Of a DNA stretch of 48,351 nt, positions 21,358 through 35,453 are shown in pieces. The DNA lies in the IMG/VR virus record IMGVR_UViG_3300009285_012247, positions 1-48,351 of that record. One strand, written 5' to 3'. The translations under genes were made by a program, and so were the position numbers. A model generated the notes under the pieces. It searched no databases. It was not told where the DNA came from and worked only from the letters and a program-made list of their open reading frames with translations. Within the stretch, counting starts at the first letter, position 1. Every line of letters begins with the position of its first letter. This stretch comes from a virus.

Positions 21358-22032
21358 TTAAATCTTCTTTCTCAACTTAAAAATAAAACCGCGAGCGAAT
21401 AATGATGGAAATAGTCTGGAAAGTAATTGCAGTAATGTGTGCGGTAGTAAGCGGACTATTATGGCTATGTATGGTTGCCTTGTGCCGCGAATCTCATAAG
21501 AACAATATGCGCTTTCTTGAACGATTAAAAATTGCTCTTTCAAAAACGTCCGACACTGTTTCAAATTTGGAAGGTGTAAATGTTTCCCGCCGTAGTTAAA
21601 ACATTCTTGATCTACAATTCCAAAGAGGCAGCGTAAGCGATGAAAAATCGTCGCCTCATTTGGAAGACTAATTACCGCGATTCCGTCATCATCTAACGTA
21701 GTCCAAATAGATTTGAGTGTACCCTTAGGCATTATCAAATGTTCCAACGTTTCCAGGCAAAGAATCCGATCTACTTTTTCGCGCCATACAAATCCTCCAT
21801 CGATATCAAGTTGAATCGTCTTTGGATGCATGATTTGACAATCGATTCCTTGATAAAAGGAGTCTGGGGAAAGGTATTCAGATGCTTCCTGTTTATGGCA
21901 TCCAATATCCAAAACCGTCATTCCGGATTTAACATCTAGAAGTGCAACTGACTTTTTGATCCTTTCCTGAGCGTCAGGATCATTTTCCATATCAAGCCAG
22001 TAATCAATCGGAATTCGTTCTTCTGTTTTCAT
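21358..22032 (-). CDS. SAM-dependent methyltransferase
   Basis: The 224-residue class I methyltransferase has motif I VLDIGCHKQEAS (about 40-51), DRILCLETLEHL (about 88-99) and GIAVISLPNE later. It has a basic hydrophobic C-terminus (LPHTLLQLLSRLFPSLF) that may sit at the membrane. It is the final gene of the leftward cargo operon, 12 bases after the glycosyltransferase. It could methylate a sugar or lipid-linked glycan; the substrate is unknown. Confidence 0.8.
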   Translation of the reverse strand: MKTEERIPIDYWLDMENDPDAQERIKKSVALLDVKSGMTVLDIGCHKQEASEYLSPDSFYQGIDCQIMHPKTIQLDIDGGFVWREKVDRILCLETLEHLIMPKGTLKSIWTTLDDDGIAVISLPNEATIFHRLRCLFGIVDQECFNYGGKHLHLPNLKQCRTFLKEQFLIVQESAYCSYEIRGTRQPYIAIIVRLLPHTLLQLLSRLFPSLFARGFIFKLRKKI

Positions 22033-22044
22033 CTTGAAGCACGA

Positions 22045-23055
22045 TCATCCATGTTTTCCGGTTTTCCAATAATTTAGCACGCGGTCAACAAAAAATCTGA
22101 GCGGAGGATTTTTCATAATTGTTTTAAAAAGTTCGTCGTCGGATTTTGTTCTAAGCAGTTGAACTTTTTTTCTGCGTTCTAATGTATCTTTCCAATAAGT
22201 TGGATTGAAGTGATAGGCCAACCCCTTTAAAATATTCCAACTCGCTTGTGGCTTTCCTGTAAGAAACATGCCACATGCGGCAATAAACCAGCCAAGCATA
22301 AGAATTGGAATAATTCTCAAGGCATTCTTTAACTCCAAGAATTTAAGGTGCATCAAAATATAATTTCTACATCCGTTGAAGTAAACCCGTTTATTGGTGT
22401 AAAAGTAATCCCATGGCTTATATTTTGTGTTAAATGCGTGATAAAGAAGCGCTTTCGGCGCCCACATAACCTTTTGACCAATCGACCATATGTTCCAAGA
22501 AATATCAGTTTCTTCTGCAAGAATTTCGTAAACAGGCTCAAATCCGCCTACTGTTTCGAATGTGCTTCGTTTTAACATCATGCAAGCACCCTTCCCTGCA
22601 AAAACAGGTTCTTCTCGATCATATTGACCTTCATCTATAATTCCATTTTCCTCTCTTGCCCATAGAAATCCAGTCCAAGTCAGGAAACTGCCGGCCCCGT
22701 CAAATCGATCTCGAAATTCCATATTTTTTGTTTTTCCGTAAACCATACCTACATTCGGCTGTTTTAAAACTTTAACCATTTCAAAAAGTGTGTTCGGTTC
22801 CACAACAGTATCATCATCGAAAAATGCAAGATACTCACCTCGCGCATATCGGGCACCAACGTTTCTTTTATTGGCGGGACCAGAATCTGAAAAAATGGTT
22901 CTTATGTTTTTAAATTTTTTTCCAGGTAAGCTTGTTACAACTATAAGCTCATAATTAATATCTTTTGTTGTCGTAAGACTTTCTGAAAGCTTTGGGACAA
23001 ACTCACCTTTATGATGACAAACAACGACTGAAACAAAATCATCTTTCTTTTGCAT
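22045..23055 (-). CDS. GT2 glycosyltransferase with C-terminal membrane helix
   Basis: The 336-residue GT-A enzyme starts with VSVVVCHHKGE, has the nucleotide-sugar/metal motif FFDDDT (78-83), GKGACMMLKRSTFETVGGF (about 148-166, acceptor side) and EETDISWN (ED-type catalytic region, about 176-183). A hydrophobic stretch near 240-265 likely anchors it to the membrane. It resembles rhamnosyl- or dolichyl-type transferases that extend surface glycans. It overlaps the upstream gene by 17 bases. Confidence 0.85.
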   Translation of the reverse strand: MQKKDDFVSVVVCHHKGEFVPKLSESLTTTKDINYELIVVTSLPGKKFKNIRTIFSDSGPANKRNVGARYARGEYLAFFDDDTVVEPNTLFEMVKVLKQPNVGMVYGKTKNMEFRDRFDGAGSFLTWTGFLWAREENGIIDEGQYDREEPVFAGKGACMMLKRSTFETVGGFEPVYEILAEETDISWNIWSIGQKVMWAPKALLYHAFNTKYKPWDYFYTNKRVYFNGCRNYILMHLKFLELKNALRIIPILMLGWFIAACGMFLTGKPQASWNILKGLAYHFNPTYWKDTLERRKKVQLLRTKSDDELFKTIMKNPPLRFFVDRVLNYWKTGKHG

Positions 23056-23347
23056 AATAGGGAAAAAGATCTCTCAGCTTTTGCGCGTTATAATCCAAAT
23101 AGTACCGACTTAAAAATATATCAAGACCCGTTCCGGTTACGAATGCGTATGCGCTTTGCGTTTCTCTAAAGTGTATTTTTTCATGATGGGTAAGCGATCT
23201 TGATGAATGAGTAAAAAAATAGGCTGCATCTCTCAAGGTCTCAACAAGAATTGAAGCTCCGATTGTGTTAATTAAAATCAGAATTTGAGCATGTGATTCA
23301 GTTAAAGCGAATGTTTGTCCGTTCTTCATGCAATCGAAAAGCTCCAT
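23039..23347 (-). CDS. Small cargo-operon protein of unknown function
   Basis: The frame is open from TTG 23356; ATG 23347 (MELFDCMKNGQTFALTE) or ATG 23329, which has GGAG about 12 bases upstream, are better starts. The product of about 100 residues has a hydrophobic helix (ILILINTIGASILVE) and a His-rich segment (SRSLTHHEKIHFRE) but no recognised motif. It overlaps both neighbouring cargo genes, so it is co-translated with membrane glycan genes. Confidence 0.6.
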   Translation of the reverse strand: MELFDCMKNGQTFALTESHAQILILINTIGASILVETLRDAAYFFTHSSRSLTHHEKIHFRETQSAYAFVTGTGLDIFLSRYYLDYNAQKLRDLFPYYAKER

Positions 23348-24458
23348 GATAATCAAAGTGTGGCTTTCCTGTAATGTACCCTGTTACATCATAAAGTTTT
23401 CTTAAAGGTTTGCTCCACGGTTGAGTAAAAGGAAAGCAAGGGTAGATATCGCGGTTTATAAGGAGTAAAACGGCTTGAAGGAAAACGATGACGTACGATT
23501 CCTGAGAACTTAACTGCCATCTCTTAAGCCCATCAACAGCAAGAATGCTTAAAGAGAGAGTCATAAGGTATAAAGCGCGTGCCGGAATTCTTTGAACAGC
23601 CGGAATAACACCTATCGTTACCAAAATCCCAAATAATAATACAATCCAAAACCGAGAGTGCGAAAACCACATAAAGAGAAATATCAAAGGACTCATGTAC
23701 ATACACATTTCCATGAACATCACGCCATGGGTATGAATACGCCTTTTGATCGGAAGAAAAAACTCAAGCAATTTAAGGATTGGAACTCGACCGAAATTTT
23801 TATCTTGATTCAATGGATTTTTCCATCGAACCGATTTTCTTAAGTAAACGAAAAAAAGAATAAGCTGAGGTAAACCTAAAATGCATCCAAAAAAACTTTC
23901 AACTGGATGAGCGTAAAGTATGAAAGGAAGTACATAAACAAAAATTGGGTAATAACCAGCGTAAACAACCATCGCAAATGAAAATGCTCCAAATCCGCCT
24001 CCCAAAAAAATACCTGGAATCCACGCAAGTGTATAAGCAATACAAGGCTGCTGGATCTTGATTGAATAACCGCTATACATAAGCGTTAAAGCACCGAATA
24101 AAGCAACAGGTGGACTTGTCCATAAAGAAAACATTTCAAACGCAAGAAATGACCCCAAAATGTAATGGCTTAAAATGAGGTAGGTAAATAAACGAAATGA
24201 GTTGTCTAAACTCAGAAATGAGCCAATAAAAGCGCTTAAGAAATGCGGAGGATAAAAGGTCGAAAGAAACGGAATAGAAGCAGGATATTTGTAGTAAAGC
24301 TGATCGGTAAAAGGAAACTTCAATTTTCTAAGACTGTTTCCGATCCAATGCCAATGAGGGAAAAAAGTAGTTGCTATTTCTGAGGTGTGATTTAGATATG
24401 GATTTTTCCAGAACTTTGAAAAGAACAAAAAATTGTACAATGCTATTAAAGCGTACAT
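23298..24458 (-). CDS. YfhO-like polytopic membrane protein
   Basis: ATG 24458 (MYALIALYNFLFFSKFWKN) overlaps the upstream methyltransferase stop by 13 bases and removes a spurious 25-residue extension. The 386-residue product has about nine membrane helices. The first outside loop carries NPYLNHTSEIATTFFPHW, similar to the DxxxQFxPW loop of YfhO/GT-C proteins, and later YPPHFLSAFIGSFL. YfhO-type proteins transfer sugars from lipid carriers outside the cytoplasm. The C-terminal domain is short, so it is a compact member or a truncated one. Confidence 0.65.
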   Translation of the reverse strand: MYALIALYNFLFFSKFWKNPYLNHTSEIATTFFPHWHWIGNSLRKLKFPFTDQLYYKYPASIPFLSTFYPPHFLSAFIGSFLSLDNSFRLFTYLILSHYILGSFLAFEMFSLWTSPPVALFGALTLMYSGYSIKIQQPCIAYTLAWIPGIFLGGGFGAFSFAMVVYAGYYPIFVYVLPFILYAHPVESFFGCILGLPQLILFFVYLRKSVRWKNPLNQDKNFGRVPILKLLEFFLPIKRRIHTHGVMFMEMCMYMSPLIFLFMWFSHSRFWIVLLFGILVTIGVIPAVQRIPARALYLMTLSLSILAVDGLKRWQLSSQESYVIVFLQAVLLLINRDIYPCFPFTQPWSKPLRKLYDVTGYITGKPHFDYHGAFRLHEERTNIRFN

Positions 24459-25063
24459 AAAATTCTGAAACTTGACGCAAAAGAAGGTACATGAGAGATA
24501 AACCGGTCGAACAATGTGATCGGCAGCGCACACGGATAAAATGAAGCCTCTCCAATAACCGACCTGATTTTAAATTGATGATCGTAAAGCATTTGGATAA
24601 GAGCAGGAACACTGAAAACTCGAACATGGCCTCCGGTTTCTTCTTGATTCCAATTAAATGCCCGTCCATAGCACTTTCGATAGGAAACCTCATAAGAATG
24701 AGGTAAGTAACCAAACAAAAAAAGGATTCGATTAAACCAAGCACATAAATTTGGCGTACCGATATCCAAAACAGTCTTTTCGTTCATAATTGCTTTTGCC
24801 TCATCAAGAAAAAAATCGGGATCATCAAGATGTTCAATCACGTGATTTGCAAAAATTACATCCCAATTTCCAATAGGAAGTCCTAATTCCATAATGTCCC
24901 AACCTGAAGTCTTATCCAGTCCCGTAACCTCGGCGTCTGGGTAAAAATCATAAACCCGCCTTGATGTTCCACTTCCTACATCAAGCACTTTTTGTCTTTT
25001 GCCATTTAAAGAAGACATCTGGATATTCCTTCCAAACATCGCACTTCGCGCAAATTCCCGCAT
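24446..25063 (-). CDS. SAM-dependent methyltransferase
   Basis: ATG 25063 (MREFARSAMFGRNIQ) has AAAGGGG four bases upstream. The 205-residue product shows VLDVGSGTSRRV (about 26-37), EVTGLDKTSGW (about 45-55) and DVIFANHVIEHLDDPDFF (about 70-87), the order expected of class I methyltransferases. The later hydrophobic NRILFLFGYLPHS region is typical of those acting on lipid-linked sugars. It overlaps the SPASM radical SAM gene by 83 bases in another frame, the largest overlap in the operon. Confidence 0.8.
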   Translation of the reverse strand: MREFARSAMFGRNIQMSSLNGKRQKVLDVGSGTSRRVYDFYPDAEVTGLDKTSGWDIMELGLPIGNWDVIFANHVIEHLDDPDFFLDEAKAIMNEKTVLDIGTPNLCAWFNRILFLFGYLPHSYEVSYRKCYGRAFNWNQEETGGHVRVFSVPALIQMLYDHQFKIRSVIGEASFYPCALPITLFDRFISHVPSFASSFRILCTL

Positions 25064-25871
25064 ATTTCCCCTTTAAATGAGAATCTCTGATTGACTTAAA
25101 TTTCTCTGATGTCCATGCGTTATGAATACTCATTTGCGGGAATTTTCCGATGACTTCTTTCTGATGAGGATCGGAGCAGCAGATTAAAATATTTCCGTTC
25201 CAAGAAATAGCTGGAGCGAACCAAAGATGGTAACAAGGCCAACGGAACTCCCATTTCGACGGCTGTGCTCGAGAACGTGTTTCTCCAAACTTCCACGTCT
25301 CTATATCGCCTCCGTAGTTGTGAAGACTCCTTGTCTCCAGATTCGGCCATTTTGACCATTTTTTGTACTGATCTTCTGGTGTTATTTCTTTAATAAATCT
25401 GACTCTAAAACGCCCCCATTTTCGTAGAGTTTCAAGAGTACTTTCATTGAAGGTTGCCTCAGTCCTCCATGTCCAAAAAACTTGGTCAATTTTGAGCGCA
25501 ATAAGTTCCTCTGCGAACTCATTAATTTTTGTTCCGTTTGTTGTAACAAGGACAACGTGTCTTTTATTTGTCTCCTTAATATACCTAATTGCATCAAGGA
25601 TTCGTGGATAGAGTAAAGGTTCTCCAAAAAGATGGAGACTAAACGACCTTGTTCCATATTTTGAGGCCTCATTTATAATTTTCCTGAAAAGCTCAAAATC
25701 CATATCCTGCCTAATCTTTTCACGAGGACAATAAGAGCAGGAAAGGTTACAAGTAGCCGTTGTCTCAATAAAAAGATGTCTTGGAAAGTTTTGATCCATA
25801 TAAAATTGAGCAAGAAGTTTATAGATTGGACTTGGAAGTTTCTTTGCAATTTGCGCATAAATAGGATTCAA
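24981..25871 (-). CDS. Radical SAM protein with SPASM-type C-terminus
   Basis: TTG 25871 overlaps the upstream stop (TTGA) and avoids a long spurious extension, giving about 296 residues. The cluster motif CNLSCSYC (41-48) is followed by SLHLFGEPLLYP (GE motif) and a C-terminal Cys-rich part: CYHLWF, ILICCSD and ICAKCDVW, as in SPASM domains that bind extra iron-sulfur clusters. Such enzymes modify peptides, cofactors or sugars. Surrounding glycan genes suggest a sugar or lipid-linked substrate. This is inference. Confidence 0.8.
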   Translation of the reverse strand: MNPIYAQIAKKLPSPIYKLLAQFYMDQNFPRHLFIETTATCNLSCSYCPREKIRQDMDFELFRKIINEASKYGTRSFSLHLFGEPLLYPRILDAIRYIKETNKRHVVLVTTNGTKINEFAEELIALKIDQVFWTWRTEATFNESTLETLRKWGRFRVRFIKEITPEDQYKKWSKWPNLETRSLHNYGGDIETWKFGETRSRAQPSKWEFRWPCYHLWFAPAISWNGNILICCSDPHQKEVIGKFPQMSIHNAWTSEKFKSIRDSHLKGKYAGICAKCDVWKEYPDVFFKWQKTKSA

Positions 25872-27205
25872 ATCAGATGTGAAATCGCTGTTTTTAAAAA
25901 ATAACCAAGATATCTGAATTTTAAACCGACTTTGGTAAAACCAATTCCCCTGTGTGAGAGGTACCATGTGTAATAAGCAATTTTTTGGAACTTTTTGACT
26001 GTTGAAACTCCCAAGTTTCGCTGATGAACCTGGGCTGAGTAATTTTGATCGAATGCTTTCCATCGCTGATCCACCAGCCATCCGTTTTCCTTTGCAATAT
26101 TCCCCCATTCGGTACCTGGATAAGGAGCGCTAATTGAGAAATTGACGATGTCGAATGGTTCCGACAAGGACAACTCAAGAGTTCGCTCCATACTTTCTCT
26201 AGTATCCCCATACATGCCCAGCATAAAATATCCCCACACTTTAAGGCCTGCTTCTTTTGCTTGCCTGACTGCTTTTCGCGCGTCTTCAACGGACGCCTCC
26301 TTTCGGTTTAGCTTTAAAACACGATCGCTTCCAGATTCACAGCCAAAACTGATCATCCACCACCCGGCAGATTTCATCTCTTTAAGCAAATCTAAATCAA
26401 CCGAATCTACACGAGAATTGCTAACGATTCTTACCTTAAAAGGAAGATTGCGAACCTGCTTGCAAAACTCATAAATCCACTTTTTATTTAACGTCATTGT
26501 GTCCCCATGAAGAATAAAATTTGTGAGTTTATATTTTGAGATTTCTTCAATCACACTTTCTACATGGCGATAACGAATAGCACGTTCTGTGGTTATCGTA
26601 GTACGGCAATAAATGCAGGCATAAGGGCAACCGCGAGAAGCGATAATCGCCGTATAGCTATTTCCGATAAACGGCATTGAGTATTTATGAATTGGCAAAA
26701 GATCTTGTCTCGCTGGAGGAAGATCCTCAAAATGAGTACCCTTTGCGCTTTCTCCTGTAATGATCTCTCGCAATTTATATTCGGCTTCAGGACCTGATTT
26801 TGAATGTTGAATTGAATAATCAAGATAAGGAAATTCGTTTAATGTTTCTTTTTCTAGGACCTTAATATGAGGGCTTATCGCGGCTGTCTTAGCTCCGATT
26901 TGTTTCGCCATGTACGCGACCGCCATATCTGAACTAATGGTGCAGGTAACCGGATTAAAAAAGACCCAGCTCGGACGAAATCTTTTCATTTCATCATTAA
27001 GAGCTGAATAAGACATTTGTTCAGCAATACAGTCAATTAACTTAACGTGATGATCAGGATAAAGTGAGGCAAATTGGGCAAGCCCTGCTTGGGGCCATAT
27101 CTCGTTTGCTTTTGATTGGCGTCCTGAACGGTTTGTGTCTCTGTAATAATTCAGGCCGTCAGGAGACGGCGGGTTCACGAAAAGTATGCGGACTTGAGAA
27201 TTCAA
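25868..27205 (-). CDS. B12-type radical SAM enzyme without the cobalamin His
   Basis: The 445-residue product starts at TTG 27205. The N-terminal domain has the ILFVNPP strand and Rossmann layout of cobalamin-binding radical SAM enzymes, but the usual DxHxxG is replaced by LIDCIAEQ, so base-off cobalamin ligation by His looks lost. The cluster motif RGCPYACIYC has Cys at 193, 197 and 200. The core has FGCESGSDRVLKLNRK and YFMLGMYGDTRESM. It probably methylates or rearranges a surface-glycan or lipid intermediate; the substrate is unknown. It overlaps the deacetylase gene by 47 bases. Confidence 0.8.
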   Translation of the reverse strand: MNSQVRILFVNPPSPDGLNYYRDTNRSGRQSKANEIWPQAGLAQFASLYPDHHVKLIDCIAEQMSYSALNDEMKRFRPSWVFFNPVTCTISSDMAVAYMAKQIGAKTAAISPHIKVLEKETLNEFPYLDYSIQHSKSGPEAEYKLREIITGESAKGTHFEDLPPARQDLLPIHKYSMPFIGNSYTAIIASRGCPYACIYCRTTITTERAIRYRHVESVIEEISKYKLTNFILHGDTMTLNKKWIYEFCKQVRNLPFKVRIVSNSRVDSVDLDLLKEMKSAGWWMISFGCESGSDRVLKLNRKEASVEDARKAVRQAKEAGLKVWGYFMLGMYGDTRESMERTLELSLSEPFDIVNFSISAPYPGTEWGNIAKENGWLVDQRWKAFDQNYSAQVHQRNLGVSTVKKFQKIAYYTWYLSHRGIGFTKVGLKFRYLGYFLKTAISHLI

Positions 27206-27746
27206 TTTCTCTACAAAGCCTTTCCAGTTTGTCTCTCACGTTTTTTAACCCAATTTGCCTTTTAAAATTTTGAATTGGGTTGTAGAGAGTAGGATGAACC
27301 AGCATAACATCGTAAGGATGAATATAAAAAATTCCAGAGCGCTCCAATAATCTCTTTGAAAGTAAATAAGGAAGCGCTCTAAACCAGAAGCCGCCTGAGT
27401 AAAGCCTTTTCTGACCTTTAAATCCAGGCGCTCTGTATAAACTCGGATCAACTGCCAAAGGCAGCGGTTCATATAATTTTTCCGACGAATTGTGGTATTT
27501 GCTGTGCCAGCCGATTAAATGACCTTCTTTTTGAATCATTTCACTTAATTGAGGTTTTTTAGCCATTAACCATCCCAAACAATACCAAATCGCTTTAATG
27601 TGATGTCGTCCTAAAAGATCAAGCAGATAATAAGTTGGTTCTTCTGTTTGGTCATCCCAATGTTCCCAATTATTAGAATAAGGTTCATACGAAAACCATG
27701 GCTCCCAATCAATGGTAAAAGTCATTTTCTGTTCACTAATGCGCAT
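27159..27746 (-). CDS. NodB-like polysaccharide deacetylase
   Basis: The 195-residue product (alternative start ATG 27725) shows the three family motifs: FTIDWEPWF (catalytic-base region, about 10-18), GHLIGWHSKYH (metal-binding His, about 75-85) and YRAPGF (about 104-109), followed by IHPYDV. It is short for the family, but the core motifs are present. It would remove acetyl groups from GlcNAc-type residues of a lipid-linked or cell-wall glycan. There is no signal peptide, so it acts in the cytoplasm, fitting modification before export. Confidence 0.75.
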   Translation of the reverse strand: MRISEQKMTFTIDWEPWFSYEPYSNNWEHWDDQTEEPTYYLLDLLGRHHIKAIWYCLGWLMAKKPQLSEMIQKEGHLIGWHSKYHNSSEKLYEPLPLAVDPSLYRAPGFKGQKRLYSGGFWFRALPYLLSKRLLERSGIFYIHPYDVMLVHPTLYNPIQNFKRQIGLKNVRDKLERLCREIEFSSPHTFREPAVS

Positions 27747-29286
27747 TCACAACTTGTCTTTGAACAAATTCAGGCAGCTTTCTTTTGTAAATAATAGTTT
27801 TAACAAACGCTTTAAAAGCAAGCCAAAGCCTTGCGACATCTTCAATTGTCCTTAACTTTTTCAATTCAGCGAACATAATGTGAGGCCTTAAGTAAAATCT
27901 TCTCCAAAAAGTCTTTGAATATCGAATCAAGTCATCACGTGTAAGACCAAAAGGAACGAAATTGATTGAAAAAGTATTGAAGCGATCCCATGAAGGATCA
28001 AATGTCCCAAACTTATTCGCTGTTTCATAAGATTCAGAGCCTGGCAATGGCTGTAAAAAAGTGTGCTGTGCATAGCTGAGTTTAAGAGTACAAGCAAAAT
28101 CAATTGTTTCCATAATAGAATCATGAGTTTCACCAGGATTTCCAAATATGAAGTTACCTTTAGAAATAATTCCAGCTTCCTGAACGGAATTAACACATTG
28201 TTTGATTCTTTCCTTTGTTACATTTTTTCTCATCGAATCAAGTATTCTTTGGCATCCTGATTCGATTCCTATTTCAACCATCCAGCAACCAGCTTTCTTC
28301 ATAAGTCTCATCATATCTGGATGAAGAAAGTCTGCCCGAGCGCAACAAGACCAGGTAAACGGAAGCTTTTCATTAATAATCGTTTCGCAAATTTCTTTAA
28401 GTCTTGGACGAGATCCAACAAATAAATCATCATAAAAAAGAAAATCTGAAACGCCGTATTTCGAGTAAAAGTCTTTCATAAAGTTAATCAAATATTCAGC
28501 AGAATTATGCCTGAATCCTCTGCCAACAACTCCCAAGTCACAAAAAGTGCATTTACCGGTACATCCTCTGCTCGTCACAAGACCAACGCTTTTAAATTTC
28601 TTCGTTCCGAAAACAGACAACCTGTAACTGGAAAATAGATTCGGAATCAAATCAAAAGCCGGAGGCGGAAATTCATCTAACGACTTAAAAAATTGCATTC
28701 GTTCGTTTACTTTTATGTTTTGACCATTTCTCCACACAAGACTTTTGATTTGATTGACCTCTGTTTTCGTTCTGATTTTCTCAAGAAACTCCGTAAAAAC
28801 GATTTCTCCCTCTCCGACAACTCCATAATCAAATTGAGGATACCGCTTAAGGGTTTCGATGGGTTCACTGGTAACATGGACGCCTCCTAAAATTGTAGTA
28901 ATCAAAGGATCACACAATTTAACAGATTTTGCTATTTGCGCAGCAGCGGAGATCATAACCGTCATGGCTGTAAGTCCTACCACTCTAGGCTTCCAGCCGC
29001 GAATGGCATCAACAATCGCTTTGACGGTTAATCCCTCCGCGTGCGCATCAAGGATTCGAACTTCGTAACCATATTTTCGAATAGTAGCGGCGAGTGAAAG
29101 AATGCCAATGGGAGGAGATGAACTTTTAACGTCGCTTAAATCCCATTCGCCGTAAAGTAAATCAAAACTAACAGGCGGGTTGATTAAAAGAACTTTAAGG
29201 TTTTTTTGACTTGACTTAAATCCATAATCATCTATTGACGAATGGTCTAAAGAAGCGTCTTTTCCAATCGTTAAAACTGCGCTCAT
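27736..29286 (-). CDS. Cobalamin-dependent radical SAM enzyme
   Basis: The 516-residue enzyme has an N-terminal B12-binding domain with VLLINPP (32-38) and a full DxHxxG motif, DAHAEG (80-85), whose His would bind cobalt in base-off cobalamin, and GGVHVTSEP (134-142). The radical SAM core has RGCTGKCTFC with Cys at 242, 246 and 249, then VEIGIESGCQRIL and NFIFGNPGETHDS. Class B enzymes of this type methylate unreactive carbons or rearrange rings in lipid, antibiotic and hopanoid pathways. It is the main catalytic oddity of the cargo operon. Confidence 0.88.
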   Translation of the reverse strand: MSAVLTIGKDASLDHSSIDDYGFKSSQKNLKVLLINPPVSFDLLYGEWDLSDVKSSSPPIGILSLAATIRKYGYEVRILDAHAEGLTVKAIVDAIRGWKPRVVGLTAMTVMISAAAQIAKSVKLCDPLITTILGGVHVTSEPIETLKRYPQFDYGVVGEGEIVFTEFLEKIRTKTEVNQIKSLVWRNGQNIKVNERMQFFKSLDEFPPPAFDLIPNLFSSYRLSVFGTKKFKSVGLVTSRGCTGKCTFCDLGVVGRGFRHNSAEYLINFMKDFYSKYGVSDFLFYDDLFVGSRPRLKEICETIINEKLPFTWSCCARADFLHPDMMRLMKKAGCWMVEIGIESGCQRILDSMRKNVTKERIKQCVNSVQEAGIISKGNFIFGNPGETHDSIMETIDFACTLKLSYAQHTFLQPLPGSESYETANKFGTFDPSWDRFNTFSINFVPFGLTRDDLIRYSKTFWRRFYLRPHIMFAELKKLRTIEDVARLWLAFKAFVKTIIYKRKLPEFVQRQVVNAH

Positions 29287-29296
29287 ATCAGATCTC

Positions 29297-30022
29297 TCAT
29301 AATTTTTCCGCCTTTACCATAAGCGACCAGCTCATCTTTTTAAGCCACGTCTTTGCTATCTTTTCATCAAGCCACATCATAACTCTGGCAATCGAAATCA
29401 GAATTTTAAAATTGACAATATCCGGAAAGCCAAGCAAAGGATATCCAAAATAACCGATATAACGTCTTTCTTTAATTTGAAATCCGGCATCCTCAATCAT
29501 GTTAAAAAGCTCTCGATCATTAAAGGACTTATGAAGATGAGAAAACCTGTCTGTATGCTGGAAAATAGATCGTATCACCTCATAAACAAAATTGTGATTT
29601 GGGTCATAACAAGACCATTTACCGCCAGGTTTGAGAACTCGAAACATTTCTTTGAGTCCTACGTGTGGGTTTTCTAAATGGTGAAGCAATGAACGGCACA
29701 CGACATAATCAAAATGATCATCAGGAAAAGGAATTTTTTCCGCACTTGCCTTGATCCACCGATGAGGATTATGAGCAAGCATTCCGTCTGAGACGTCTAT
29801 TCCGGTGATATCAAAATTGGGATAAAGCTGGCTTAAAAATCCATTTCCGCATCCAACATCTAAAACTTTATGCGACATTCGATCTGACATTCTGATCTCT
29901 TCCAGCATTTCACAAGCATAACGTGCATGATAAAGAAAACCTGTTCCGCTGTAACGCTTGGCGTAAAATTTAGAGGTATAATCCTGAACTAATTTTTCGG
30001 TGGTAGGTTCGCCTTTGGACAT
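29297..30022 (-). CDS. SAM-dependent methyltransferase (UbiE/Methyltransf_11 type)
   Basis: The 241-residue product shows VLDVGCGNGFLS (about 53-64), DITGIDVSDGML (about 70-81), SAEKIPFPDDHFDYVVC (about 93-109) and MFRVLKPGGKW (about 125-135), the complete class I signature. A hydrophobic C-terminal third (LISIARVMMWLDEKIAK) may contact membrane lipids. It overlaps the upstream GT2 gene by 34 bases. It probably methylates a sugar or a polyprenyl-linked intermediate. Confidence 0.88.
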   Translation of the reverse strand: MSKGEPTTEKLVQDYTSKFYAKRYSGTGFLYHARYACEMLEEIRMSDRMSHKVLDVGCGNGFLSQLYPNFDITGIDVSDGMLAHNPHRWIKASAEKIPFPDDHFDYVVCRSLLHHLENPHVGLKEMFRVLKPGGKWSCYDPNHNFVYEVIRSIFQHTDRFSHLHKSFNDRELFNMIEDAGFQIKERRYIGYFGYPLLGFPDIVNFKILISIARVMMWLDEKIAKTWLKKMSWSLMVKAEKL

Positions 30023-30708
30023 CGAAGATTCCTTAATACGCTTCTTAAACCGCGTGTTCTAAGCGCAAAACCGAGTTTCAAAATATAAAAAAGCGTTATC
30101 CATCCGTCTTTAAAAACATTGACCTTACTTTTTCCTTCTTTTCTATGAATCACATCAATTGGGAAAAATTCAACTCTATAGCGGTCACAAATCATGGAAA
30201 GTGTAAGACAGGTGGTAAATGAAAAGGATTGGCAAAGAATGTCTCTATATCCAAAAGCGATACCTTTTTTAAAAATTCTAAATCCGCTGTTCAAATCATT
30301 AAGCCAATAAAGGCAAATGAACGAAGCTGTCCAATTAAGAAATTTTCTTCCCAAATACCGGTACCAAATCTCATTTTTGATTCTTCTTTTTCCTATGATC
30401 ATATCCGCTTCAATCATCTGCCAAACTTGGTAAAGATTTAATACATCCTGAACTTGATGCTGGCCGTCTCCATCCATTGTGACAATAATCTCATTAGAAG
30501 CGTTTTTAATGCCCGTCAAAATAGAAGCGCCATAACCAAAAGAAACTCCGTGTTTGATTGATTCAGGGTAAGAATTATCCGAACCATCATCTACAATAAT
30601 TACCTCAGCTTCTCTTTCTTTAAGTCCAACGCGCAAAGAGTCTAAGACTTTGTGACTTTCATTCCGTTCAGGAATTATGACGCTAACACCAAATAAGCTA
30701 CCAGACAT
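29989..30708 (-). CDS. Polyprenyl-phosphate mannosyltransferase-like GT2 (DPM1 type)
   Basis: The 239-residue GT2 enzyme has VIIVDDGSDN (36-45), YGASILTGIKNA (59-70), MDGDGQH (78-84, the DxD metal motif) and GKRRIKNEIWYRYLGRKFLNW (about 106-126). This is the pattern of dolichyl/undecaprenyl-phosphate mannosyl- or glucosyltransferases, which make the lipid-linked sugar used by GT-C enzymes. The operon also encodes two GT-C-like proteins (23298 and 33117), so donor maker and user are encoded together. Confidence 0.85.
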   Translation of the reverse strand: MSGSLFGVSVIIPERNESHKVLDSLRVGLKEREAEVIIVDDGSDNSYPESIKHGVSFGYGASILTGIKNASNEIIVTMDGDGQHQVQDVLNLYQVWQMIEADMIIGKRRIKNEIWYRYLGRKFLNWTASFICLYWLNDLNSGFRIFKKGIAFGYRDILCQSFSFTTCLTLSMICDRYRVEFFPIDVIHRKEGKSKVNVFKDGWITLFYILKLGFALRTRGLRSVLRNLRCPKANLPPKN

Positions 30709-30917
30709 ACAGAACCTATTGTGATCAAGGTTTTAATAACATCGAAAATAAGACTTATGAAATACATCTTAAAAACTGGTTTCAATATTCTTGAAAGATT
30801 TTCTTCACTAAAATCAAACCCATATTTTTGAAGTTCTCCAAGAACAAATTTGAACTCTTCAAGCAATGGACGAATCGTATGCTCGACAAAAGCTCCGTAA
30901 GGCTTTAGATCAATCAT
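30675..30917 (-). CDS. Small protein with one membrane helix
   Basis: The 80-residue product (MIDLKPYGAFVEHTIR) is charged and helical in the first half and ends in a hydrophobic helix (LITIGSVCLVAYLVLAS). It is linked by an ATGA overlap to the GroES-like gene and overlaps the GT2 gene by 34 bases. It may anchor or adapt a partner at the membrane. No family is recognised. Confidence 0.65.
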   Translation of the reverse strand: MIDLKPYGAFVEHTIRPLLEEFKFVLGELQKYGFDFSEENLSRILKPVFKMYFISLIFDVIKTLITIGSVCLVAYLVLAS

Positions 30918-31219
30918 TCCGTCTTACCCAATAGATCCCATTCACTTATGACCCTGTAGGTCTCAGTTTTGAACTGAATATTGATACCAGAAAAAGGTTT
31001 AAAATAAATCTTATCCCCTTTTTTATGCTCATATTGACATCGAGATCCCCATGAAACAATCGTTCCGGTTGAAGCAACTTTTTTCAACGCAGTCTCATAT
31101 TTTTCAGGAAGAGTAATCTTTCCTTCCTTTAATATCCTCACAATTTCTGGATTTTGATCCATAAACTCATCTTGATCTTGTTTAATCAAAACGTTATCAT
31201 TAAGCACTTTTAACGGCAT
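30914..31219 (-). CDS. GroES-like co-chaperonin
   Basis: The 101-residue protein fits Cpn10 well in length and motif order: LKVLNDNVLIKQDQ at the start, then KITLPEKYETAL (mobile-loop region), STGTIVSWGSR (the GxVVxVG strand), KKGDKIYFKPFSG (the GDxVLF motif) and YRVISEWDLLGK at the end. Co-chaperonins cap GroEL; phages such as T4 (gp31) encode one to fold their capsid protein. Here it lies inside a glycan operon rather than with the head genes, which is unusual. The mobile loop differs from host GroES. Confidence 0.8.
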   Translation of the reverse strand: MPLKVLNDNVLIKQDQDEFMDQNPEIVRILKEGKITLPEKYETALKKVASTGTIVSWGSRCQYEHKKGDKIYFKPFSGINIQFKTETYRVISEWDLLGKTE

Positions 31220-31979
31220 AAAAACACCTCAAGAATATTTTGTAAAGTTCATTCCGCCAATGATATGGAACATGCCGATTAGAAAACTTCAAATAGTTTT
31301 CAAACCTGTTTTTTGAGTCCGTGAGTCTCAGTTTAAAAGCGCCTGATCTTGACGGACAATGATAAAGCTTAGCTCTCGGATTAAACCACAGTTGGGAACC
31401 TTCTTTCCTAATTCTGTAAGCAAGATCAGGTTCTGACCAGTCTCCAATTCCTCGATAAGATTCATCAAATCCGCCTACTTTTTCAAATGCCTCTCTTTTA
31501 AAAGCCATATTACATGCTTCAAGAAAATCAACTCTACCTTCATAACTGCATGACTCATTACACGCTCCAGTCGTCCAGGCTCCGCTAGAAGTGATATGTC
31601 CTGGAAGCTGTTCAAGCCCGTCAAGAAATAGCCAATCGTAAAGCTTTTTTAGCATGGGATATCGAAATAAGTCCCTATTTTTACGATAACCGCTATCAAT
31701 AATGCTAGGGCCAGAAACACCGCCAATCCGATTTCCATAAGTGAAACAAGAAAGAATCTCTTTAAGCCAATTTTTTGTCGCCACAATATCATCATCAATG
31801 AAAACAAGGATGGCTCCTTTTGCCCGTTTTGCTCCTTCATTTCTCAACTTTGTAAGTTCGCCTTTCTCACGGACGAGAACAATCTCAAAATCTTTCGAGC
31901 TTTGTTCTTCTAAGCTCTTGAGACAGGCGTCAAGGGATTTAGGTCTTCCAAGCGTCGGAATGATAATGCTCGCTTGCAT
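31200..31979 (-). CDS. GT2 glycosyltransferase
   Basis: The 259-residue GT-A enzyme has SIIIPTLGRPKSL (4-16), LTKLRNEGAKRAKG (42-55), the IDDD metal motif (61-64), CNMAFKREAFEKVGGFDE (about 155-172) and GDWSEPDLAYRI (acceptor/catalytic region). The type is close to rhamnosyltransferase-like family 2 enzymes. It overlaps the upstream GT2 gene by 70 bases and the GroES-like gene by 20. It lacks a membrane segment. It likely adds one sugar to a lipid-linked oligosaccharide. Confidence 0.85.
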   Translation of the reverse strand: MQASIIIPTLGRPKSLDACLKSLEEQSSKDFEIVLVREKGELTKLRNEGAKRAKGAILVFIDDDIVATKNWLKEILSCFTYGNRIGGVSGPSIIDSGYRKNRDLFRYPMLKKLYDWLFLDGLEQLPGHITSSGAWTTGACNESCSYEGRVDFLEACNMAFKREAFEKVGGFDESYRGIGDWSEPDLAYRIRKEGSQLWFNPRAKLYHCPSRSGAFKLRLTDSKNRFENYLKFSNRHVPYHWRNELYKIFLRCFYAVKSA

Positions 31980-32854
31980 AAAGTCCTCAAAACAAGAATC
32001 GTGTACATAATCAAAAATCCTACACAGACTGGCCAGTGCCAGAACCAGGCAAAGTCTCTAATTTTTGCAAATCCTTTAATGCTGACGAAGAGGGGCTGAA
32101 TAACTGTGACAGTAAAAAAGATGTACAGAGCAAGTCTAAGGTAATCTTCTTTTGCACTGACCATTCGCCAGCGTCTATCGTGACGGTTACAGTATAAATC
32201 TCTTGCATAGCGGTACCTCCTAAGTAAAAAGGTGAATAAGTTGTCCGATGTGCGATGCCAAATTTGTAATGCTCCCGACCTGAAATAAAAGTATTTTCCA
32301 AGTTTTCTTAAATCTTCAGCGTTATCCATCGGATAATAATGATCGAGATCAGACTGAAGAATATCGTCACGCTTGTAAAAAAATCCATTGCATCCGAGGC
32401 TTGGGATAAACTTTCTAAAATTTAACATCTCTCCAACTAAAATTTCAGGATCATCCCAATAAGGCAGGCGATCATTTTTACCAAGATAAAAACAAATCGG
32501 ATCATTTCCTCCAACCAAAGAAAAATAACGATTTAAAGAATTATCATCTTTCCTTACAGCATAATGTCTACCGTAAACCCCAGTAAATGGAAGTCCGCTG
32601 TAAAAGATTTTAAACACATCAGTAAAAGTTCTAGACGCTACAACGTAGTTATCCGCGCAAAACATAGCACAAATTTCTCCTCGGGCGCGCCTGATTCCAA
32701 TGGCCTTAGCTTGTTCTGAATCGCCTTCTGTAATGACCAGAATTTCTATTTGATCTTGTGGAAAATCTTGAACCTTGATTGAAGCAATAAGGTCTTTAAG
32801 CTTTTGAGATTCACTATCTTTTTTTGATGCTGGAATAATGCATGAAAAAATCAC
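31910..32854 (-). CDS. GT2-like glycosyltransferase with membrane C-terminus
   Basis: The 314-residue product starts at GTG 32854, with GAGGA just upstream. It has CIIPASKKD (5-13) and ARGEICAMFCADNYV (57-71), where the usual DxD is FCADN, a degenerate form. Two hydrophobic helices near the C-terminus (ALYIFFTVTVIQPLF and VCVGFLIMYTILVLRT) suggest membrane attachment. The altered DxD could mean changed donor or metal use, or loss of activity. It overlaps the downstream GT2 by 70 bases. Confidence 0.75.
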   Translation of the reverse strand: MIFSCIIPASKKDSESQKLKDLIASIKVQDFPQDQIEILVITEGDSEQAKAIGIRRARGEICAMFCADNYVVASRTFTDVFKIFYSGLPFTGVYGRHYAVRKDDNSLNRYFSLVGGNDPICFYLGKNDRLPYWDDPEILVGEMLNFRKFIPSLGCNGFFYKRDDILQSDLDHYYPMDNAEDLRKLGKYFYFRSGALQIWHRTSDNLFTFLLRRYRYARDLYCNRHDRRWRMVSAKEDYLRLALYIFFTVTVIQPLFVSIKGFAKIRDFAWFWHWPVCVGFLIMYTILVLRTLCKRALSFRRLEDLNPLTPVSRA

Positions 32855-32875
32855 TTCCTCTTTTATGTTAATCTC

Positions 32876-33163
32876 CTATTTTTGTTCGAGTCCTAATTGT
32901 TTCTCAAGTTCAATTAGTTCTTGCTTCGCCTTTGGAATCGAGTCAATTGTAAATCCGGTTATGGGACAATTCAGAAAGCGGACAAGTTCCTCTTTCGCAT
33001 TCACAAGGTCGTTTCTTTGCCTAAAAATTGCGTATAAATTAGCATGTGCGGGCGCATAAAAAAAGTCCATTTTTCCGCATTCCCTATAGGTCTCAATCGC
33101 CATATCAATTTTTCCGTCAGAGTGAAACTTCTGTGCTAAATCGAATATTTCGGTAACGTTCAT
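32876..33163 (-). CDS. TPR-like protein
   Basis: The 95-residue product (MNVTEIFDLAQKFHSDG) consists of helix pairs with TPR-style spacing: KIDMAIETYRECGKMDFFYAPAH is one clear repeat and NDLVNAKEELVRFL a second. TPRs are protein-binding scaffolds. The gene overlaps the end of the TMTC-like membrane protein, itself ending in TPRs, by 47 bases. It may be a split-off C-terminal TPR unit acting with that enzyme. Confidence 0.7.
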   Translation of the reverse strand: MNVTEIFDLAQKFHSDGKIDMAIETYRECGKMDFFYAPAHANLYAIFRQRNDLVNAKEELVRFLNCPITGFTIDSIPKAKQELIELEKQLGLEQK

Positions 33164-34829
33164 AATGTGCCTCCGTGACTCCTCTATTGATTGATTTTAG
33201 GTGTTCTTCCATTGGTTTCATGAGATAAAGCATCAGTTCAAGTTGATTCATCTCTTTGGACCATAATTTATCAAAGTGAACCACTTTTGCATTAAGACAT
33301 TTTATAAGCGCGTCTTTAGCCAAAGAAAACTGGCCTGCCGACTTATAGAGCGAATAAAGATTGTAATAAGGAACATCATAAAAAGGATTTACTTTTGCCG
33401 CTTGGAGCCAGACATCCAGCGCCGAACCCTGCCGGCCGCTGTTGGCCAAGACAACGCCTAAATTTCCCATAGCAACTTCAGATTTAGGAAAGTTCCAAAT
33501 GTTTGATTTGTAAAATGATTCTTCATCTTTAAAGGTAGGAATGTGAACCCAAGTTCTCATGATGTAAAGACCAAGAAGCGTACCGTAAAGAATTGGAAAG
33601 TCTTTTAGATAATAGGCTGCGACAAGTGAAAAACCAAGAATTGAATTAAAGGCATAACGATCAACCACAAACTGCTGTGCGGTAATCACATTCAAAAAAA
33701 GGCAAAGATAAAGAGAAAACCAAAGAAGCCCTAATCGAACCGTGAATGGAGCGAAATAAAATAGGAGACCCAAAAGAATGATATAGACAACCCCTCTCCA
33801 GAAAATAAAGTCAAAGCGCTCAAGAGTTTCGTCAAAATGATATCCAAACGTATGGAATAGACCCAGACTCCATGGCCAAATCATAAGCTCCACATAATAA
33901 GCAAAAGTCTTAACCATAAGAATAGGTTTTCTTCGGGTTAAATAAGTAGACTCACCCATGTTTTGGCTTTTGAATGCATCTTTCCTGTAATCGACATGCC
34001 AGCTAAAGATCTTGATTCCAAAACCAAATGCAATCCAAAAGGAAATGAGCGCATAAATAGGTTTTCCAATAAAGGCAAGAATAGCCCAATTGGCGGCTGC
34101 CGACATGAGGCCGGAACAAGAAATCAAGGTAAAAAATGCAATCAAAAGTGAATTGGGAAAAATGTGAATTGAGGAAAGAGCAAGGTTAAATGTTACAATC
34201 AAACCAAAATAATTAAGGAGGTATCCAAATCCTGAACACCAAGCTACCGCTTGACAGGAAATCGGATTAACGAGAAAAAGGAGAGTCGTAAGAAGCGCAA
34301 GATCTGAACCGAACAGTTTGGACAAAAAGGTATAGGTAAGGAAAGAATTGAGTAACTGCGTAATTAAAGAAAGTAAATGGTGCCTCAGCGGATTTTGAGT
34401 AAATCCGAAAATTTCATGTCCTTTTGTTGTCCTTCCAATAACCGTAAACTTCTTTCCTATTTGATGTCTTGCCCATCGAAGAATTGAAAAAGGGAAACCA
34501 ATATGAGGATTGAATTGTATATTTCTAAATTTTAGTTTCTTCTTTTCCGGTCCTACCTCTAATTCATACGAGTCAATCTTGTCGCCATAAGCGTCACTTT
34601 TATCAATATGGCATTTTGGACAAACGCTAGATCCTTTCGTTTCCTCCACAGCCCAAGTGTAACTACAAAGCCTGCATATAAAACCTGCTACTCTTAATTT
34701 ATCTGAAAAACGCTCAATTCCGTCATGGTCATCACTTACAAACCCGCCCCAAAGTGAATTGATCCAAGTTACGAAAAATACAATGGTTATGATTGAAAAG
34801 TGGGCAAATGAACCATGAAGAAGATCCAT
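33117..34829 (-). CDS. TMTC/PMT-like membrane O-glycosyltransferase with zinc ribbon and TPRs
   Basis: ATG 34829 is preferred to TTG 34871 and gives 570 residues. After the first membrane helix comes FVSDDHDGI, matching the catalytic acidic loop of PMT/TMTC-type GT-C enzymes. The region LLNSFLTYTFLSKLFGS to NPISCQAVAWCSG follows the TMTC consensus (LLNALLVYLLLRRL to HPVxxEAVAW). About ten helices precede C-terminal TPR-like units (MGNLGVVLANSGRQGSAL, YNLYSLYKSAGQFSLA). A four-Cys zinc ribbon (CRLC and CPKC, about residues 52-73) is inserted in the first loop, which I do not recall from the family. It is the first gene of the cargo operon. Confidence 0.78.
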   Translation of the reverse strand: MDLLHGSFAHFSIITIVFFVTWINSLWGGFVSDDHDGIERFSDKLRVAGFICRLCSYTWAVEETKGSSVCPKCHIDKSDAYGDKIDSYELEVGPEKKKLKFRNIQFNPHIGFPFSILRWARHQIGKKFTVIGRTTKGHEIFGFTQNPLRHHLLSLITQLLNSFLTYTFLSKLFGSDLALLTTLLFLVNPISCQAVAWCSGFGYLLNYFGLIVTFNLALSSIHIFPNSLLIAFFTLISCSGLMSAAANWAILAFIGKPIYALISFWIAFGFGIKIFSWHVDYRKDAFKSQNMGESTYLTRRKPILMVKTFAYYVELMIWPWSLGLFHTFGYHFDETLERFDFIFWRGVVYIILLGLLFYFAPFTVRLGLLWFSLYLCLFLNVITAQQFVVDRYAFNSILGFSLVAAYYLKDFPILYGTLLGLYIMRTWVHIPTFKDEESFYKSNIWNFPKSEVAMGNLGVVLANSGRQGSALDVWLQAAKVNPFYDVPYYNLYSLYKSAGQFSLAKDALIKCLNAKVVHFDKLWSKEMNQLELMLYLMKPMEEHLKSINRGVTEAHYERYRNIRFSTEVSL

Positions 34830-34849: not shown

Positions 34850-34878
34850 ATGGTAATAAGAAGTTAACCAATTGTCAA
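34850..34878 (-). promoter_or_regulatory. Promoter for the leftward cargo operon
   Basis: On the minus strand TTGACA (34878-34873), a 17-base spacer and TACCAT (34855-34850) fit a sigma70-type promoter with a moderate -10. It is the only recognisable promoter before the 17-gene block. The -35 box is the mirror image of the opposite-strand -35 at 34892, making an ATTGTCAA-13-TTGACAAT inverted repeat. Confidence 0.55.
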
Positions 34879-34891
34879 TAACAATACGGAC

Positions 34892-34920
34892 TTGACAATT
34901 TTACTTACGAGTGGTATACT
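34892..34920 (+). promoter_or_regulatory. Strong rightward promoter for a structured RNA
   Basis: TTGACA (34892-34897), a 17-base spacer and TATACT (34915-34920) form a near-consensus promoter. Transcription would begin near 34927 and run away from the cargo operon. No protein-like gene follows until 35289; the intervening sequence is rich in base-pairing segments. Confidence 0.8.
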
Positions 34921-34926
34921 CTTTTT

Positions 34927-35245
34927 TGAGTGAAGTAGGACAACAAAGAAGCAATTTCCATTTTTGGAACCCTTCTCACCTGTCCTGTGATCACTCAACC
35001 ACATTGCTTCTTAGGTGTGAGGGTTCCGTCTTTATGAACCTTACCAGTGAAACTGAGGGATTTGTAGACTGTCACCGGCTAATCGATGCAAAAACAAGAG
35101 TCGTCCGTAAATTAGAATAACGGAATTAGTGGCAGTAATTTCCTTAAAAAAAATTTTCTTCGGTAAGTTATCTTTTTGTCTTTTTTCTTTTAAAGAATAG
35201 CAAGCAGCGTGCCAACGCTGTCTTGCTCAAAGCTTTTCTTTTTTC
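34927..35245 (+). ncRNA. Candidate structured RNA with pseudoknot
   Basis: Downstream of the 34892 promoter, AAGAAGCAAT (34946-34955) is perfectly complementary to ATTGCTTCTT (35003-35012), and GGAACCCTTCTCACCT (34966-34981) pairs over 14 bases with AGGTGTGAGGGTTCC (35013-35027) with one bulge and one mismatch. The two helices cross (order b-c-b'-c') and abut, as in an H-type pseudoknot. A third, competing pairing is TTGAGTG-AGGACA (34926-34942) with TGTCCT-CACTCAA (34981-34998). Later stems are CCAGTGA/TCACCGG (35044/35072) and CCGT/ACGG (35105/35120), ending at the hairpin 35199-35227. I recognise no known RNA family. Open frames inside are not protein-like. Confidence 0.6.
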
Positions 35246-35265
35246 TCTTTTTCTATAACTTACTG
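35161..35265 (+). terminator. Hairpin module ending the structured RNA
   Basis: A strong hairpin AGCAAG-CAGCGT-(GCCA)-ACGCTG-t-CTTGCT (35199-35227) is flanked by AAAG/CTTT and followed by CTTTTCTTTTTTC, so it can act as an intrinsic terminator on the plus strand, though the T-run starts several bases after the stem. Around it, CGGTAAGTTAT (35161-35171) and ATAACTTACTG (35255-35265) are complementary arms enclosing T/C-rich strands that cannot pair with each other. Confidence 0.5.
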
Positions 35266-35288
35266 GAGAGAATTTTAAAAAAAGCGCA

Positions 35289-35453
35289 ATGATTGATAAA
35301 CTTTCAACCTGGGAAAAGTTCTATTTCGGAGTTGTGATCGCGACCGGGATTTTGTTTGTCGCGCTCATGATGTTTATTATGTCCCTATTGCCTTCGTGGG
35401 TTTTACTGTTTATATTTTTTACGGGTTTTCTTGCTTTCTTTTTAATGGATTAA
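35289..35453 (+). CDS. Two-helix membrane microprotein
   Basis: ATG 35289 encodes 54 residues (MIDKLSTWEKFYFG) with two hydrophobic helices (VVIATGILFVALMMFIM and WVLLFIFFTGFLAFFL) joined by a short SLLPS turn. It lies 43 bases after the hairpin of the structured RNA, on the same strand, and is convergent with the virion genes. There is no good nearby Shine-Dalgarno (GGAGAG is about 20 bases away). It is holin-like in size and topology, but it is not in the late operon, so an early envelope function is equally possible. Confidence 0.6.
   Translation: MIDKLSTWEKFYFGVVIATGILFVALMMFIMSLLPSWVLLFIFFTGFLAFFLMD

Follow-up and report, generated by a model that had tools for sequence, protein, structure and literature searches.

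A predicted structured RNA flanked by late genes and a cargo operon in an uncultivated tailed phage, tentatively read as a repressive leader of a small membrane-protein gene

Between the leftward late-gene block (35482 onward) and the leftward cargo operon of an uncultivated tailed phage lies a predicted structured RNA, which we tentatively read, with a probability of roughly 45%, as a repressive, possibly switching, long 5' leader of an accessory gene encoding a 54-aa membrane protein. What sequence and calculation provide for this reading is a promoter, competing helices beyond chance, a helix that buries an SD-like site, an ORF, and a genomic slot whose content varies (Table 1). The phage carries an SU10-type portal and terminase and is represented by a 48,351-base virus record in IMG/VR (IMGVR_UViG_3300009285_012247), the whole of which is referred to here as the window. 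A profile search for its host, with two protein profiles against genome contigs, returned no match. The cargo operon (21358-34829, minus strand) encodes glycosyltransferases, a methyltransferase, and radical-SAM and B12-binding enzymes, and is conserved and common to related viruses.

Table 1. Sequence features at the RNA locus (positions in the window; predicted structures refer to the plus-strand RNA).
Feature	Position	Strand	Details
Cargo-operon promoter, TTGACA-17-TACCAT	34850-34878 (34878->34850)	-	Consensus scan 10/12
Perfect inverted repeat AATTGTCAA-13-TTGACAATT, operator-like	34870-34900		Repeat search
RNA promoter, TTGACA-17-TATACT	34892-34920	+	Consensus scan 11/12; TG-extended -10
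RNA transcription start	Expected near 34928	+	Inferred
Nested hairpin A	34926-34933/34991-34998 and 34935-34942/34981-34988	+	16 pairs plus inner hairpin; minimum-energy and growing-chain folds
Helix S1	34946-34955/35003-35012	+	10 perfect pairs; excludes A, crosses S2
Helix S2	34965-34981/35013-35028	+	15 pairs, one small internal loop; excludes A, crosses S1
Possible 28-aa upstream ORF MNLTSETEGFVDCHRLIDAKTRVVRKLE	35034-35120	+	SD-like GAGG 35019-35022, gap 11
Helix P1	35150-35171/35255-35276	+	22 unbroken pairs, 3 G-U, no mismatch; buries GGAGAG 35265-35270
Two 20-nt pyrimidine tracts	35172-35191, 35234-35253	+	Mirror at 19/20 positions; face each other inside P1
Terminator-like hairpin (35199-35227), then U-rich tract at a distance	35199-35254	+	-18.3 kcal/mol
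54-aa hydrophobic ORF	35289-35453	+	ORF list; probably two transmembrane stretches; likely gene served by leader

The promoter of the RNA is the top-scoring site across 33-37 kb in the consensus scan. A previous reading of the same DNA without database searches (referred to as the sequence-only reading) had picked out this promoter and had placed the RNA next to the cargo promoter and transcribed away from it, both of which we confirmed: the two TTGACA promoters are divergent and point away from each other. The 9-bp perfect inverted repeat contains the -35 boxes of both, and may serve as an operator through which cargo operon and RNA are regulated together.

Within the 5' domain of the RNA, two long helices (S1 and S2) cross each other, and their lengths agree with the 10 perfect and about 14 pairs described previously. 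The duplex energies are -11.6 kcal/mol for S1 and -24.8 kcal/mol for S2, and 0 nt separate their 3' strands. Scored as the best crossing pair of unbroken stems, the region has a summed stack energy of -36.1 kcal/mol, as compared with -23.1 +/- 3.0 kcal/mol in 300 dinucleotide shuffles, none of which was as good. The crossing element is unique in the window and has one other match in 377 kb of relatives (both strands scanned in each case), in a scan whose limits were set after the S1/S2 element was already known. The 344-nt RNA as a whole also folds better than its shuffles (z = -3.8).

The minimum-energy fold, however, is a nested hairpin (A) that takes up the 5' strands of both S1 and S2. For positions 34926-35050, hairpin A reaches -39.3 kcal/mol, as opposed to -29.2 kcal/mol with S2 forced and -25.3 kcal/mol with S1 forced; it is thus favoured by 10-14 kcal/mol, and growing-chain folds complete it at a stage when neither S1 nor S2 has its 3' strand yet. 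Very roughly, S1 and S2 together would come to about -30 kcal/mol with the usual pseudoknot penalty (an estimate rather than a computed pseudoknot energy), which would be less stable than A. Moreover, a full coaxial stack of S1 and S2 would oblige the 9-nt first loop to span about 25 bp, which would be sterically strained and past the reach of the loop, although a bent arrangement or partial S1/S2 helices may be accommodated. Hairpin A is therefore the predicted default state of the 5' domain and the pseudoknot at most an alternative or candidate second state, since the nested form is favoured in energy and folds first, and since the coaxial stack is strained. The H-type pseudoknot of the sequence-only reading accordingly survives as a crossing beyond chance, but is weak as a label for the RNA, with the nested fold favoured in energy and no homologue found whose covariation could bear on it; its helices do abut in their 3' strands, while their proposed coaxial stacking conflicts with the loop geometry; and the third pairing, seen there as a competitor of both helices, does exclude them and is itself the predicted ground state. 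These structural assignments derive from folding energies and shuffles of a single sequence.

The 3' domain is closed by a further helix (P1), missed in the sequence-only reading, which is longer than the longest stem found in 200 shuffles of the region (18 pairs) and encloses both the terminator-like hairpin and the two pyrimidine tracts. All three of its non-Watson-Crick positions are G-U, as would suit RNA pairing more than a DNA palindrome. The GGAGAG buried in it has a pairing probability near 1 in the predicted fold. The hairpin inside P1 had previously been taken as the end of the segment; it is indeed present, but its U-tract is non-canonical, beginning 6 nt past the stem, a terminator scanner gave no plus-strand listing for it, and P1 extends further. 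A candidate antiterminator (34924-34942/35216-35233) is weaker than the hairpin (-13.7 vs. -18.3 kcal/mol), and antitermination by the 5' strand would be feasible, if weak. On the minus strand, the scanner lists a terminator-like hairpin at 35220-35205. With late genes that point leftward into the region, and with a separate promoter for the cargo, a transcriptional insulator is conceivable, in which the hairpin and rightward transcription together stop late transcripts from entering the cargo operon. We regard such a role as very unlikely, given that late and cargo genes nearly adjoin in two relatives with nothing between them (L034 and L035, see below), and that crossing helices are unnecessary for insulation.

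The mirror arrangement of the two pyrimidine tracts is the sole repeat of its kind in the window, and was equalled in 10 of 50,000 shuffles. The two tracts, which face each other over an internal loop, could give rise to H-DNA or to an RNA triplex. One could imagine a nested-to-pseudoknot switched leader whose mirror loop joins a purine-rich strand in an RNA triple helix, as a triplex control or stability element, but we give this elaboration hardly any credence. In having a symmetric, U-rich internal loop with a stable stem on either side, the phage RNA recalls ENE-type triple-helix elements; its loop, however, is longer and of mixed U and C, and no poly(A) or purine partner is evident. ENEs are an element known from RNAs of eukaryotes and of their viruses.

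Two small ORFs, both absent from the sequence-only reading, lie at the locus. The 54-aa ORF has a codon score of 0.12 on phage codon use (off-frame 95th percentile, -0.08) and a hydropathy of up to 2.66 over 19 residues, while the 28-aa ORF, whose SD-like GAGG sits in the 3' strand of S2, has a codon score of 0.16 (off-frame 95th percentile, 0.03); coming from single short ORFs, these codon scores are supportive only. That the segment holds a structured RNA with a promoter of its own and outside known families is borne out at the level of sequence; the about 320 bases previously described as non-coding include the 28-aa ORF. The GGAGAG in P1 is the only SD-like site ahead of the 54-aa ORF, in a phage where 23 of 56 ORFs use SD sites (about 10% by chance). 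Its GGAG precedes the ATG by 20 nt, a distance beyond the range of normal initiation, so that the 54-aa ORF would be initiated either poorly or in an unusual way. A homologue search with the 54-aa ORF found none, and homology to the small ORFs of relatives was rejected because the similarity falls short of significance (p about 0.1 at best). The predicted read-through fold pairs CAUUGC in the 3' strand of S1 (35002-35007) with GCAAUG at the start of the 54-aa ORF (35286-35291), which may be chance.

We found eight terminase relatives (49-63% identity), and synteny with the window is seen in two long records; L001, a 100%-identical fragment, does not cover the RNA region. The gene adjoining the RNA was found in five records, and together with its neighbour in a sixth (L037). 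None of these six syntenic relatives has the RNA; what occupies the slot instead, where anything does, is unrelated small ORFs pointing rightward, most of them for membrane peptides. In L031/L025, a TTGACA-TATACA promoter precedes a cassette made up of four or five small ORFs, all rightward; the first ORF of the L025 cassette (6240-7420, minus strand) encodes a zinc-ribbon-like 43-aa protein. In L033/L029, a short leader with a TTGACA promoter, a GAAA-capped hairpin, and a strong 12-pair terminator bearing a U-run stands before an SD and an ORF for a 26-aa hydrophobic TM peptide (L029 10300-10475, the L033 virus); the hairpin-like sequence recurs in a second copy immediately before the promoter. 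The L037 slot combines a TTGACA box with an SD-like site and a 44-aa peptide, and that of L032 an SD with a 25-aa hydrophobic peptide, while the slot is empty in L034 and L035, where late and cargo genes almost adjoin. To judge from these sequences, the slot is a variable accessory-gene site, the usual content of which is a small rightward gene, often for a membrane peptide and sometimes behind a terminator-bearing leader. This content is our main ground for preferring a leader over a free small RNA, and the relatives likewise point to control in cis of the small downstream ORF rather than of the cargo.

As the main rival explanation, the phage could make a free-standing small RNA, about 320 nt long, that ends at the U-rich hairpin and has as its trans target an RNA of host or phage, or a protein; the 54-aa ORF would then be incidental. 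A strong promoter of its own, a hairpin with a U-tract, the strong overall folding (z = -3.8), the poor SD spacing of the ORF, and the similar short promoter-to-terminator unit of L033 are all consistent with this explanation, which we nevertheless consider rather unlikely: P1 extends beyond the terminator and would be without a role, the slot in most relatives contains small ORFs and not RNAs, and the RNA does not pair with phage translation starts better than shuffles do. Against any translation start in the window, its best pairing is -33.8 kcal/mol, no better than that of shuffled RNA (-35.0 +/- 2.5 kcal/mol), which also gives no support to the previous suggestion that the RNA could regulate the cargo, as far as base pairing in trans is concerned.

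Homologues of the RNA were sought in several collections. Rfam 15 gave no match at the gathering cut-off, the best sub-threshold matches being far below it, in line with the previous statement that no RNA family of such form was known. No homologue was found by blastn in INPHARED (phages) and PLSDB (plasmids), in related virus records, or with three DNA patterns scanned against IMG/VR viral contigs, where exact matches are required and diverged copies would escape. Matches from the pattern scans were rejected as homologues, as they are pattern-only and have no flanking similarity. The RNA is thus represented by one sequence only. Its absence from every collection searched, along with a slot that is empty or different in 6/6 relatives, would also be expected if this variable slot held a remnant or a drifting intergenic sequence, with a real promoter and an RNA structure without a selected role. 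We find this distinctly unlikely, considering that two independent structures exceed shuffles and that the non-Watson-Crick pairs of P1 are all G-U.

Among known systems, the RNA would on paper work like timP-type toxin mRNAs, although it is not a member by sequence. timP (RyfA), the RNA of which was once taken for non-coding, is the toxin of the timPR type I toxin-antitoxin system and a small inner-membrane protein; in its mRNA leader, nested and pseudoknot forms are mutually exclusive and the SD is trapped in a stable stem (PMC11228461). Shared with timP are a long structured leader, a 5' hairpin competing with a pseudoknot, an SD in a stable stem, and a small membrane product (here predicted). 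Unlike timP, the phage RNA has a terminator-like hairpin ahead of the gene and an abnormal SD spacing, and the two share no sequence similarity or Rfam match. Two features of type I toxin mRNAs are present in the sequence, namely a small hydrophobic product (54 aa) and an SD sequestered by the leader, though 20 nt from the ATG; for an antisense antitoxin RNA, the consensus scan found weak minus-strand promoter-like sites nearby, none of them convincing. Attenuators and riboswitches likewise combine a promoter, alternative helices, a terminator-like hairpin, and then a gene, but the phage RNA has no known ligand domain (no Rfam match) and its candidate antiterminator is weaker than the hairpin. 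Type III (ToxI-like) antitoxin RNAs similarly have a promoter, a pseudoknot-capable RNA, a terminator, and then an ORF; the phage ORF, however, encodes a 54-aa hydrophobic peptide and not an endoribonuclease, and a repeat search for the tandem repeats of a type III antitoxin RNA found no tandem family in the region.

The leader reading is favoured by the promoter, crossing helices that exceed 300 shuffles, the exclusive nested state, P1 over the SD-like site, the codon score and hydropathy of the 54-aa ORF, the small rightward ORFs in the slot of relatives, and the timP precedent. It is weakened by the 20-nt distance between the SD-like GGAG and the ATG, the non-canonical terminator, the 54-aa ORF's lack of a homologue or significant similarity to the ORFs of relatives, the empty slot of L034/L035, and the expectation that an RNA of 350 nt will offer several alternative pairings in any case.

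In the leader model, transcription, termination, translation, switching, and its trigger are all steps that we infer. Transcription would begin near 34928, and many transcripts would end at the U-rich hairpin near 35245, giving an RNA of about 320 nt. In read-through transcripts, P1 would bury the only SD-like site and expression would be low. The 5' domain would switch between hairpin A, the default that forms first, and the crossing S1/S2 helices, and the small gene would be released at some stage, whether by refolding from A into S1/S2 or through cleavage of P1. Should the switch prove real, this RNA would be a phage example of control by leader refolding, so far described for timP, and would suggest that accessory membrane genes swapped at this slot can arrive with their own RNA locks.
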